A stretch of 64,000 nucleotides of DNA, from assembly GCA_031261485.1 (NCBI GenBank), contig JAISJO010000031.1:1-64000 (forward strand). The letters run 5' to 3'. Position numbers and translations under genes: made by a program. Numbering within the stretch: position 1 is the first letter of the stretch; each line of letters opens with the position of its first letter. The notes under the pieces are model-generated. The model was not told the DNA's origin, did not search any database, and saw nothing but the letters and a program-made list of their open reading frames with translations. Origin of the DNA: Propionibacteriaceae bacterium. GTDB taxonomy: Bacteria; Actinomycetota; Actinomycetes; Propionibacteriales; Propionibacteriaceae. Positions 46,969-63,986 of this stretch are shown here, piece after piece.

Positions 46969-47586
46969 CTACTCCGACAGCTTGAGGTGAATGACGCCGT
47001 AATCGTAGGCCTTGCGGCGGTAGACCACCGACGGAAGCGCGGAGTCGGTGTCGACGTACAAGAAGAAGTCGTGGCCGACCAATTCCATTTCGTCGAGAGC
47101 CTGGGCCAGGGTGAGCGGGGTGGAATAGAACATCTTCTCGCGCACAACCATGGGGCCGTCGCCTTGGATTTCCAATCCGGCGATCTTCTTGACGGGCACC
47201 GATGCTGACGGTTCGGTCGCGGGAGGAACGCTCGGGCTGACCTCCGCAGAGGGGTCGACAAAACCGACCTTGCGCAGATTGCGATGTTCACGGCGACGGT
47301 CAGCAGCTTTGCGAAGTTGGGCCTTGAGATGGTCGAAAGCGCCGTCGAAGGCGGCGGTCTTGGAATCGGCGGTCGCCTCGGCACGGACCACCGGCCCCTT
47401 GCCTATCAGCGTGATCTCCACGCGAATCGACTCCGCTGTCCCCCGCTTCTCCTGGGTTTGCTGCGCTTGAACTTCAGCGCGAATGACCTTGTCAACACGG
47501 GAGTCGAGTTCGGCCATCTTCTTCTCGACAGCTTCTCGGAAAGTGTCGGTGATTTGGATCTTGCGGCCAGTGACGGTGACGTCCAT
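46969..47586 (-). CDS. hpf: Ribosome hibernation promoting factor, long form
   Basis: A 205-aa protein; ATG at 47586 follows AAGGAGG. The S30AE domain (about 1-105, 'GRKIQITDTFREAVEKKMAEL') is followed by a Pro/Ser/Val-rich linker and a C-terminal dimerisation domain ('VREKMFYSTPLTLAQALDEM'). Long HPF joins two 70S ribosomes into inactive 100S particles in stationary phase. Confidence 0.94.
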   Translation of the reverse strand: MDVTVTGRKIQITDTFREAVEKKMAELDSRVDKVIRAEVQAQQTQEKRGTAESIRVEITLIGKGPVVRAEATADSKTAAFDGAFDHLKAQLRKAADRRREHRNLRKVGFVDPSAEVSPSVPPATEPSASVPVKKIAGLEIQGDGPMVVREKMFYSTPLTLAQALDEMELVGHDFFLYVDTDSALPSVVYRRKAYDYGVIHLKLSE

Positions 47587-47729: not shown

Positions 47730-47808
47730 GTAACCCAGCGCGACTGGACCGTAACACTGGGACGAACAAACTTACGCGACCGTAACAAGATTCCCAGTGT
47801 CGCGTAAC
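47730..47808. promoter_or_regulatory. Phased GTAAC boxes upstream of amtB
   Basis: GTAAC begins at 47730, 47751, 47782 and 47804. The steps of 21, 31 and 22 bp are close to whole helical turns, so all lie on one DNA face. On the minus strand two copies read GTTAC-N17-GTTAC and GTTAC-N6-GTAAG, which recalls GlnR sites. A palindrome TTACG-CGAC-CGTAA spans 47772-47785, and a 9-bp inverted repeat pairs 47754-47762 with 47792-47800. Confidence 0.6.
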
Positions 47809-47831: not shown

Positions 47832-49187
47832 ATGACACTCTTTGAGCTCTCTGCAGGCGACACCGCTTGGGTATTGATCAGCGCCGCACTGGTCATCCTC
47901 ATGACCCCCGGTCTCGCCATGTTCTATGGCGGTATGGTTCGGGCCAACTCGGTCCTCAACATGATGATGATGAGCGTATCGACCATGGCCATCGTCGGCA
48001 TCCTATGGATGTTCTACGGCTATGGTCTCGCTTTCGGTAACGATGTGGGCGGTGGCCTGCTTGGCAATCCCTCGGGTTTGGTCGGCCTTCAGGACCTTCT
48101 CGGTCCAGGCCCTGACGGAGATGGGGTCTTGTATGGAACCATTCCCGCCCTAGCCTTTGTGGCCTTCCAGTCGGCCTTCGCCATCATTACTGTTGCCCTT
48201 ATCTCAGGCGCAGTTGCTGACCGTATGAAGTTTGGTGCTTGGGCGATTTTCGCTGCGCTGTGGGCCACCTTGGTTTACTTCCCCGCAGCTCACTGGGTCT
48301 TCTCCTTCGACGGGTTCACCGCTGAAACCGGTGGTTGGATCGCCAACACCATCGGTGCCATCGACTATGCGGGCGGCACAGCCATCCACATTAACGCTGG
48401 TACAGCAGCTCTGGTGCTCGCCCTCGTCATAGGTCCGCGCGTTGGCTTCGGCAAGCGCCCCATGAGGCCCCACAACATGACGTTGGTTATGTTGGGTGCC
48501 TGCCTCCTGTGGTTCGGGTGGTTCGGCTTCAACGCTGGATCCGCCCTCGGAGCAGGCTGGCAAGCCTCCACCGCATGGGTCAATACTTTGGGCGCGACCG
48601 GCGCCGCCATTGTTGGTTGGCTAGTGACGGAGCGCATTCGTGACGGACACTTCACCTCCTTGGGCGCTGCCTCTGGTGCCGTCGCTGGCCTGGTCGCCAT
48701 CACCCCAGGTTGTGCAGCGGTCAGTCCACTGGGCGCGTTGTTCATTGGTTTCATCGCGGGCATCTTGTGCGCGCTAGCTGTCGGATTGAAGTTCAAGTTC
48801 GGATATGACGACTCACTCGACGTGGTGGGCGTCCATCTCGTTGGTGGCCTCACTGGCACTCTTCTCATCGGATTCTTCGCAGTTTCGACTGCACCCAACG
48901 GAGTCTCTGGAGTCTTCGACGGCGGCGGGTTCGCCCAATTGGGCGCGCAGGCTATTGGCGCATTCTCCGTCATGATCTACTCTGCAGTTGTCACTGCCAT
49001 CATCGCCCTTGTCCTCAAGGCCGTCATGAAGATTCGGGTGACTCCCGCCGAAGAGGTCGCAGGCATTGACCTCGCCGAGCACGCAGAAGTCGGGTATGAC
49101 CTCTCCAACGTGCGTTACACGTCCTATCAGGGTATTGGCCACCAATTGGTCGTTCCCGCAGCGAACAAGGAAGAGGTCTCAGCATGA
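47832..49187 (+). CDS. amtB: Ammonium transporter
   Basis: A 451-aa protein with eleven predicted membrane helices. 'GAIDYAGGTAIHINAG' holds the structural Asp and the first pore His; 'VVGVHLVGGLTGTLL' holds the second. 'MLGACLLWFGWFGFNAGS' is the family signature. It imports ammonium. The stop overlaps the glnK start (ATGA), and PII binding would plug the channel. The C-terminal cytoplasmic tail carries 'EVAGIDLAEHAEVGYD'. Confidence 0.96.
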   Translation: MTLFELSAGDTAWVLISAALVILMTPGLAMFYGGMVRANSVLNMMMMSVSTMAIVGILWMFYGYGLAFGNDVGGGLLGNPSGLVGLQDLLGPGPDGDGVLYGTIPALAFVAFQSAFAIITVALISGAVADRMKFGAWAIFAALWATLVYFPAAHWVFSFDGFTAETGGWIANTIGAIDYAGGTAIHINAGTAALVLALVIGPRVGFGKRPMRPHNMTLVMLGACLLWFGWFGFNAGSALGAGWQASTAWVNTLGATGAAIVGWLVTERIRDGHFTSLGAASGAVAGLVAITPGCAAVSPLGALFIGFIAGILCALAVGLKFKFGYDDSLDVVGVHLVGGLTGTLLIGFFAVSTAPNGVSGVFDGGGFAQLGAQAIGAFSVMIYSAVVTAIIALVLKAVMKIRVTPAEEVAGIDLAEHAEVGYDLSNVRYTSYQGIGHQLVVPAANKEEVSA

Positions 49188-49522
49188 AACTCATCACTGC
49201 AATCGTCCAACCGGAGAAACTAGCGGATGTGCAAATAGCACTCGCACAGCACGGTATCGCAGGCATGACCATCTCGGAGTGCTCAGGATACGCCCGTCAA
49301 CTCGGACACTCGGAGGTCTACCGAGGCGAAGAGTTCACCATCAACTTCGTCCTCAAGGTCAAAGTGGAAATCCTGGCCGCCGACACTGACGTGAGCGACA
49401 TCGTCGATATCATCGTCACTGCTGCTCGCACAGGCCAGGTCGGAGACGGCAAGGTCTGGGTCAGTTCCATCGACGAGGTCGTCAGAGTTCGCACTGGCGA
49501 GCGAGACGCCAAGGCGGTGTGA
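49184..49522 (+). CDS. glnK: PII signalling protein with Phe at position 51
   Basis: A 112-aa protein with normal PII length and ends ('MKLITAIVQPEKL', 'GDGKVWVSSIDEVVRVRTGE'). The T-loop reads 'YRGEEFTINF'. Counting from Met1, Tyr46, Arg47 and Gly48 are kept, but residue 51 is Phe where nearly all modified PII proteins have Tyr. It should therefore bind ATP, ADP and 2-oxoglutarate but not accept a uridylyl or adenylyl group on residue 51. It overlaps amtB and ends at a terminator; no glnD follows. Confidence 0.95.
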   Translation: MKLITAIVQPEKLADVQIALAQHGIAGMTISECSGYARQLGHSEVYRGEEFTINFVLKVKVEILAADTDVSDIVDIIVTAARTGQVGDGKVWVSSIDEVVRVRTGERDAKAV

Positions 49523-49538
49523 GCTCCGCAACGTTGGG

Positions 49539-49566
49539 AAGGAGGTGGCTTCGGTCACCTCCTTTT
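49539..49566 (+). terminator. UUCG-loop terminator after glnK
   Basis: The stem AAGGAGGTG/CACCTCCTT is closed by a C(TTCG)G tetraloop (49549-49554) and followed by TTTT. It ends the amtB-glnK operon 16 bases after the glnK stop. Confidence 0.88.
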
Positions 49567-49572
49567 CCATGT

Positions 49573-50232
49573 TCACGTGTGCAGGACGGTGGCAGCGACT
49601 GTGGCCATCCCTCGCACATCGCACCCGGCCCTCCTCAGGGCACGACTCGCCTCGGCTAGGCTCGCTCCCGTAGTCACCACATCATCGACCACAACGACCC
49701 AGCCACGCAGGCGAATCCCCTCCATGCCGCCTGTCAGGTTCTCCATCCTCTCTGCGGATGTCAACCCGCCTTGGTCTCGTGTGGGTCGCACAAGAACCAA
49801 GCCACGCCGGGCCCTCACCTCCAAGCCCGCGCGAGCCAGCACAGACGCCGCCTGGGATGCGAGTGAGGCCACAGTGTCCAGTCCCCTGGCTCGCACAGCG
49901 GAACCCGCTGACGGGACCGGCACCAGAACTCCCGGCCCTTCCAGCCGCTCTTGATCCGCTAATCCTGCCACTGACCAGGCCAGTCTCTGTGCGAGCAAGG
50001 CAAGCGCGTCCCAGCGATGTCGGTCTTTCGCTGCAGAGATAAGTCGTCGCACAGGGTCCACGTAGTCACCTGCCGCCCACACAGGCTCGGCGAGAAGCGC
50101 CCTCGTGCGTGGCCCGACTTGCCCAGCTCTCACGTCAGCAGCGCATGACAAGCACACACCGTGTCCTGTGCGGGAACACCCAGGGCACTGCCCTCCAGCG
50201 AACAAGTCGGCAGCCGCGTCCAAGAATCCCAC
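49573..50232 (-). CDS. comF: ComF-family phosphoribosyltransferase-like protein
   Basis: A 219-aa protein. An N-terminal zinc ribbon ('CPGCSRTGHGVCLSC') and a C-terminal PRTase fold with the PRPP loop 'VVVDDVVTTGASLAEA'. ComF supports DNA uptake in competent bacteria; in actinobacteria it is widespread and its role is unclear. It follows lpqB by about 80 bp and converges on glnK, the order seen in other actinobacteria (mtrA-mtrB-lpqB-comF). Confidence 0.9.
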   Translation of the reverse strand: MGFLDAAADLFAGGQCPGCSRTGHGVCLSCAADVRAGQVGPRTRALLAEPVWAAGDYVDPVRRLISAAKDRHRWDALALLAQRLAWSVAGLADQERLEGPGVLVPVPSAGSAVRARGLDTVASLASQAASVLARAGLEVRARRGLVLVRPTRDQGGLTSAERMENLTGGMEGIRLRGWVVVVDDVVTTGASLAEASRALRRAGCDVRGMATVAATVLHT

Positions 50233-62648: not shown

Positions 62649-63986
62649 TCAGAGCACCGGCAGGAACTTCGCCAGTTCCCATGCGGTCACCTGACGGCGG
62701 TACTCTTCAAACTCGGCACGCTTGTTCTTGAGGAAGTAATCGAAGACATGCTCGCCCAAGGTCTCGGCCACCAATTCAGAGCGTTCCATGACGTTGAGCG
62801 CCTCATCCAGATTGCGCGGCAACGGTGTAATGCCCATGGCCTTTCGCTCACGGTCGGTGAGGCTCCACACATCGTCCTCAGCTCCAGGAGGCAATTCCAA
62901 ACCCTGCTCGATGCCGTCCAGGCCAGCGTTGAGCATGAGGGCATAGGCGAGGTACGGGTTGGCGGCCGAGTCGATGGAGCGCAACTCCACACGCACAGAT
63001 GCGCCCTTGTTCGGCTTGTACCCTGGCACACGCACAAGAGCCGAGCGATTGTTGCGACCCCAGCAGATGTACGCCGGAGCTTCCAAGCCCGAAGCCAGTC
63101 GGGCGTACGAGTTGACCCACTGGTTCGTGACGGCGGTGATCTCGCCGGCATGGGCGAGCAGACCAGCCACGAACTGACGCCCGATACGGGAGAGATGGTA
63201 TTCGTCGGAAGCGTCGTAGAAGGCGTTGGTGTCGCCCTCGAAGAGCGACATGTGGGTGTGCATGCCTGACCCCGGCACATCCGTGAGCGGCTTGGGCATG
63301 AAAGACGCCTGGATGCCGAGGAGGGCGGCGACCTCTTTGACGACCACCCGGAAAGTCATGATGTTGTCCGCCATGGACAGAGCATCAGCGTAGCGGAGGT
63401 CGATCTCGTGCTGACCAGGGGCCGCCTCGTGGTGCGAGAACTCAACCGAGATGCCCATTTGCTCCAGCATGGAAATCGTCTTGCGCCTGAAGTCCGAGCC
63501 TTGACCCAGGTTCGTGTGGTCGAAGTACCCCGCATGGTCCAGCGGCTTCGGTGGCTGACCAGGTTTGGTGTTGGCCTGGAAGAGGAAGAACTCAATTTCA
63601 GGATGGGTGTAGAAAGTGAACCCCTTCTCCCCCGCCTTCTTCAAGGTCTTCTTGAGCACATAACGCGGATCGGCGTACGACGGCGACCCATCAGGCAAGG
63701 TGATGTCGCAGAACATGCGGGCGGTGGGCTTCGATTGATCCCGCCAGGGCAAGGTCTGGAAGGTCGCGGGGTCGGGATGGGCGATCATATCCGACTCGTA
63801 CACGCGGGCGAACCCCTCAATGGCCGACCCGTCGAAACCGATGCCCTCCTCGAACGCGCCTTCCACCTCGGCGGGCGAAATGGCGACGGACTTGAGGAAA
63901 CCCAAAACATCAGTGAACCAGAGTCGGACAAATCTGATGTCGCGCTCCTCCATGGCGCGCAACACGAACTCAGTCTGCTTATCCAT
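62649..63986 (-). CDS. glnA: Glutamine synthetase, type I, GlnA2-like
   Basis: A 445-aa protein close to mycobacterial GlnA2 from its first residues ('FVLRAMEERDIRFVRLWFTD'). Metal and substrate motifs: 'GFDGSAIEGFARV', 'HPEIEFFLF', 'HHEAAPGQHEIDLRY', 'GSGMHTHMSLF' and 'RVELRSIDSAANPYLAYA'. The adenylylation loop 'NLYDLP' of GlnA1 is absent (here 'MGITPLPRNLDEAL'), so it is not expected to be controlled by GlnE. The start is 14 bases from the right edge, so promoter signals are outside the window. Confidence 0.94.
   Translation of the reverse strand: MDKQTEFVLRAMEERDIRFVRLWFTDVLGFLKSVAISPAEVEGAFEEGIGFDGSAIEGFARVYESDMIAHPDPATFQTLPWRDQSKPTARMFCDITLPDGSPSYADPRYVLKKTLKKAGEKGFTFYTHPEIEFFLFQANTKPGQPPKPLDHAGYFDHTNLGQGSDFRRKTISMLEQMGISVEFSHHEAAPGQHEIDLRYADALSMADNIMTFRVVVKEVAALLGIQASFMPKPLTDVPGSGMHTHMSLFEGDTNAFYDASDEYHLSRIGRQFVAGLLAHAGEITAVTNQWVNSYARLASGLEAPAYICWGRNNRSALVRVPGYKPNKGASVRVELRSIDSAANPYLAYALMLNAGLDGIEQGLELPPGAEDDVWSLTDRERKAMGITPLPRNLDEALNVMERSELVAETLGEHVFDYFLKNKRAEFEEYRRQVTAWELAKFLPVL

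Follow-up and report, generated by a model that had tools for sequence, protein, structure and literature searches.

The window analysed here (the whole stretch of 64,000 nucleotides from a Propionibacteriaceae bacterium) carries an ammonium channel gene and the gene of its putative regulator side by side. The first, amtB (47832-49187, plus strand), encodes an ammonium transporter of 451 amino acids; the second, glnK (49184-49522, plus strand), encodes a PII protein of 112 amino acids, and the two overlap by four bases, the start codon of glnK lying across the amtB stop (ATGA). Upstream, on the minus strand, is a conserved flank of the locus (46969-47586), whose product we take, from recognition of its sequence, to be an hpf-like ribosome hibernation factor. 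Directly after glnK comes a comF-like phosphoribosyltransferase gene on the minus strand (49573-50232; the Pfam match falls just under the cut-off), preceded by a terminator-like hairpin (49530-49573, plus strand; -26.8 kcal/mol, z = -4.9). An earlier, sequence-only reading had placed a terminator and then an opposite-strand comF after glnK; the gene, its orientation and the strong hairpin are there, but the hairpin has a short T run only, and it was not picked up by a simple terminator scan. Ahead of amtB, at 47740-47786, lie two one-mismatch GlnR-box-like sites that share GACCGTAAC or CGACCGTAAC, 45-92 bases 5' of the amtB start; a GlnR box scan of the window gave fewer matches in total than chance would, and this pair is not significant by count.

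The glnK product, whose translation includes GYARQLGHSEVYRGEEFTINFVLKVKVE, belongs to the P-II family (Pfam PF00543, 7.7e-24, residues 1-106 of 112), and its best matches in the PDB, by sequence, are the PII structures 3lf0/3bzq and 6yc7/6yc6. Its T-loop reads GYARQLGHSEVYRGEEFTINFVLKVK, so that residue 51 is Phe, just as had been claimed; codon 51 (49334-49336, plus strand) is TTC, a single base away from the TAC (Tyr) of the family's glnD-linked copies. An actinobacterial GlnK that is modified (adenylylated) by GlnD needs Tyr51, and this one does not have it. Sequencing error at the codon is ruled out, since F51 is common to independently assembled relatives and recurs in the lineage when their T-loops are aligned. 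Both features expected of a GlnK that gates AmtB are present, an operon shared with amtB and Arg47 at the tip of the T-loop: the pore-blocking tip, Tyr46-Arg47-Gly48 (49319-49327, plus strand), is invariant in all readable copies, Arg47 included, and PII lies directly 3' of amtB in 93 of 94 copies. T29, Q39, K58, G87, D88, K90, R101 and R103 are all retained, position 9 being Gln and not Lys or Arg, and the alignment of relatives shows R47, Q39, K58, G87, D88, R101 and R103 conserved, with little or no variation in the nucleotide-binding residues. Selection on the protein is purifying (pN/pS 0.34 between the window copy and its nearest relative), as it is in other close pairs.

This is the only PII gene in the genome (2.82 Mb, 98% complete), and whole-genome searches with the PF08335 and TIGR01693 profiles found no glnD in it either, the latter as the sequence-only reading had supposed. 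Matches to PF08335, the GlnD domain, come down to the two halves of one protein, GlnE, and the GlnD model TIGR01693 finds weak partial matches only (best 1.2e-9, compared with 1e-64 to 1e-144 in glnD-bearing genomes). GlnE itself, with 986 amino acids and both nucleotidyltransferase halves, is encoded on contig C35 (L196 8506-11466, minus strand; NF010707, 1182 bits, cut-off 625), near a type I GlnA (L196 4928-6520, plus strand) in which the adenylylation-site motif, KDLYELPPEE, with its Tyr, can be read. The genome's other glutamine synthetase, a GlnA2-like protein of 445 amino acids, is the one in the window (62649-63986, minus strand), and it does lack the LYELPP site, as noted earlier. The larger claim, that covalent nitrogen signalling had apparently been lost, is too broad: both genes needed for a GlnE-GlnA adenylylation cycle are intact, so that the cycle would have been kept. 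On this gene content, GlnD-type modification of PII residue 51 is predicted to be impossible in this genome, and the classical cascade to have its PII-modifying half gone and its glutamine synthetase half intact.

How glnD left can be read from the neighbourhood. In relatives the locus runs hpf, amtB, glnK, glnD (where there is one), comF, lpqB, mtrB, with amtB, glnK and glnD pointing one way and the rest the other, and in glnD-less relatives glnD alone is missing. Because this order holds whether or not glnD has been lost, comF directly after glnK in the window means that glnD is cleanly gone, and the hairpin at 49530-49573 occupies its place.

We searched 148 related genomes, several of them fragmented assemblies, for PII, GlnD, GlnE and AmtB, and went through 92 PII sequences for the residue at position 51. 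Tyr occupies the aligned column in every one of the 42 PIIs read from glnD-bearing genomes (25 from the outgroup, 17 from the family), and among the 49 readable glnD-less copies 22 have Tyr and 27 do not (19 Phe, 3 Val, 2 Ile, 2 Met and 1 Leu). Loss of Tyr51, in other words, is seen only where glnD is missing. F51 is not fixed even in the window's own genus, whose eight genomes with PII have Phe in six, Tyr in one and Met in one. Across the class, a DNA pattern for the Tyr form of the T-loop matches 273 of 395 genomes and the Phe form only two, the window's genome and one other (G505), where the match lies outside any PII gene and was rejected. Saccharopolyspora oryzae (L034) has a PII with Tyr51.

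A tree of 65 AmtB rows, built from a single gene linked to glnK and without a panel of species markers, gathers 41 glnD-less rows into one clade (support 95/95). The state of glnD changes three times on this tree and the residue at 51 switches between Tyr and non-Tyr at least eight times, with all non-Tyr51 rows falling among the glnD-less ones. It is easy to make too much of this. The association of Tyr51 with glnD has a Fisher value of 1.5e-5 that is uncorrected and overstates the case, the independent-pairs test yields few pairs only, and, because glnD-less branches make up 72% of the tree length, eight of eight changes would fall there by chance with a probability of 0.07. Once branch length is counted, the family tree alone is not decisive on whether changes at Tyr51 are restricted to branches without glnD.

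Residue 51 is not the only position to move. Codon 9 of the window gene (49208-49210, plus strand) encodes Gln, as do 41 of the 50 glnD-less copies, this one included, whereas 40 of the 42 glnD-linked PIIs have Lys, and in other PIIs Arg9 is a salt-bridge ligand of 2-oxoglutarate (PMC8395244, our source for the roles of ligand residues). Also tracking the loss of glnD, along with Lys9 to Gln, are Gly37 to Ala, Pro57 to Leu, Thr or Glu, and Lys85 to Gln or Glu. Most likely, PII here senses by ligand binding alone, as had been proposed, but the change at position 9 complicates a reading of pure ligand sensing: Gln at a residue that contacts 2-oxoglutarate suggests a shift in the ligand response as well, and together with Gly37 to Ala it could alter the response to 2-oxoglutarate.

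The company that PII keeps points to AmtB. All 76 glnD-bearing genomes retain PII. Among the matches listed, the 72 glnD-less genomes of the family divide into 45 with PII and AmtB, 23 with neither, 4 with AmtB only and none with PII only (Fisher 4.5e-15, a value that ignores kinship); in the window's genus, again among the matches listed, 8 of 19 genomes have both and 11 neither; and PII without AmtB occurs in none of the 148 genomes among the matches listed (the lists of absences were partly completed by subtraction from those matches). GlnE behaves differently, being retained, among the matches listed, in 22 of the 27 genomes that lack PII. AmtB without any PII match is found in G022, G046 (genus g5), G069 and G020, the first three of them 99-100% complete, which means that AmtB does not strictly depend on PII.

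GlnD has its own history in these organisms. The glutamine sensors of GlnD are its ACT domains. In genera g2, g6, g10 and g16 and in genome G062, GlnD ends after the HD domain, and the proteins run through Pfam gave no ACT match; frames in genus g23 are equally short and likewise have no ACT matches, and in g20 and g26 two ACT stretches are found. Six such ACT-less frames, of about 575-627 amino acids, are L145:5367-7247, L143:2770-4503, L149:5410-7161, L152:3347-5167, L198:3365-5086 and L172:3253-5034; presumably, they are blind to glutamine. The short form occurs in the glnD-bearing genera nearest to the glnD-less ones and the full-length form in more basal genera, and since GlnD in these nearest relatives has no ACT domains, the loss of glnD looks stepwise. 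Given what the ACT domains do, the glutamine input probably went first and the enzyme itself later.

We think it likely, then, that glnD was deleted from an amtB-glnK-glnD operon in this branch of the Propionibacteriaceae and that PII would have persisted as an unmodified plug, controlled by its ligands, mainly for the neighbouring ammonium channel. Tyr51, with no enzyme to use it, would have come under relaxed constraint and been replaced many times, here by Phe, and adenylylation of glutamine synthetase by GlnE would carry on independently. Such a plug has precedent: E. coli GlnK with the Y51A substitution continues to bind and release AmtB as nitrogen status changes, and Arg47 at the tip of the T-loop has a role in the blocking (PMC4274968). 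One might worry instead that glnK is simply decaying and that F51 is one step towards a pseudogene, since more than half of the genus lacks both PII and AmtB and the T-loop varies at several positions that are otherwise conserved; with an open reading frame that is intact, under purifying selection and overlapping amtB in an operon, and with the nucleotide and AmtB-contact residues kept, we regard this as very improbable. Hardly more credible is the thought that PII continues to receive a covalent tag, whether from a different enzyme, for instance GlnE, a related nucleotidyltransferase that is at hand, or at a different residue such as Tyr46. Tyr46 is indeed invariant, but it is equally so in glnD-linked PIIs, and its invariance needs no special explanation; the PF08335 search found no further GlnD-family enzyme in the genome; and GlnE stays in most of the genomes that have no PII for it to act on.

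Two other possibilities deserve more respect, and we still doubt both. In one, a small adaptor akin to archaeal sP36 has taken the place of GlnD and bridges GlnK to AmtB on ammonium upshift, so that PII would not act through ligands alone. Homologues of sP36 are reported in Propionibacteriaceae, and organisms that encode it are reported to lack GlnD (PMC10714827), but no small open reading frame stands out by eye beside amtB-glnK in the window, and we rate the adaptor as rather unlikely here. The other, to which we give about the same modest credence, has unmodified PII controlling several targets by ligand binding, GlnE among them, and not mainly AmtB. In its favour, PII proteins elsewhere among bacteria act on a wide range of targets (PMC4285133), and this one retains its nucleotide-binding residues; against this, PII is missing wherever AmtB is missing while GlnE stays, and in Streptomyces coelicolor control of GlnE depends on neither GlnK nor GlnD (PMC10704036). 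The deletion of glnD with an unmodified PII left to serve AmtB can also be extended into an ordered dismantling, possible but offered tentatively, in which GlnD would first have lost its ACT domains; glnD would then have been deleted, with repeated decay of Tyr51, Lys9 giving way to Gln and PII becoming a channel-only valve that senses mainly the adenylate energy state; and PII and AmtB would at last have been lost together or fused in one polypeptide.

Parts of this picture are familiar. The GlnK proteins of Corynebacterium glutamicum, Streptomyces coelicolor and mycobacteria are, like ours, encoded in an amtB-glnK operon, but they are adenylylated by GlnD, whereas the window's genome has no glnD and a Phe at the modified residue; in C. 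glutamicum, GlnK Y51F is reported to have the same effect on AmtR control as deletion of glnK (PMC7919409). Many organisms have PII without evidence of modification (PMC4285133), and Archaeoglobus fulgidus, whose PII has no Tyr51, and Methanosarcina mazei have, as here, GlnK beside AmtB, no GlnD and no known modification (PMC10714827). What differs is that the state here is derived, glnD having been lost within the family, where many sister species retain Tyr51. The glnD gene has been called ubiquitous in actinobacteria (PMC4285133), yet Saccharopolyspora erythraea is reported to keep PII and lack glnD (PMC10704036), and so are sP36-bearing Propionibacteriaceae (PMC10714827). Unmodified PII and glnD-less Propionibacteriaceae are, that is, already on record. 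The portions of those two reports at hand describe no decay of Tyr51, no ACT-less GlnD and no co-loss with AmtB, and our literature search, partial in its coverage and so a weak negative, found no earlier account of Tyr51 decaying repeatedly once glnD was gone, of an ACT-less intermediate or of PII and AmtB disappearing together in the family; the stepwise decay series appears to be new. The enterobacterial GlnD-GlnB-GlnE-GlnA bicyclic cascade likewise has GlnE and a GlnA with an adenylylation site, but here the PII-modifying half is missing and GlnE stays even where PII is gone.

Why bother with a missing tag? What covalent modification of PII is for remains under debate, since an unmodifiable GlnK mutant behaves almost normally with AmtB, and this family is a natural experiment on that question in which the main glutamine synthetase is still under its own, separate tag. 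A single family covers the whole range, from full GlnD through GlnD that lacks the glutamine sensor, then absence of GlnD with Tyr51 retained or with Tyr51 replaced, to no PII at all, and permits comparison of what the tag added and of which PII targets depend on it. The series is an argument that no tag is required to gate AmtB and that this group retains GlnE even in the absence of PII.

Some arrangements of the two genes are stranger still. In L180 and L192 (genus g9), amtB-glnK is duplicated in tandem, with two copies each, glnD absent and Tyr51 kept. Fusion of AmtB and PII in the same frame does not serve as a general explanation, for there are many long stop-to-stop frames, but a domain search left only three true fusions: L147:1639-3327 (G025), L179:1763-3499 (G066) and L164:4923-6689 (G050). 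We found no published AmtB-GlnK fusion in a literature search of partial coverage. The domain order, from Pfam on L147, is PF00909 and then PF00543; the AmtB part of the fusions is very distant from the family's own AmtB, and in the PII part residue 51 is Val and the T-loop, its YRG tip apart, is degenerate.
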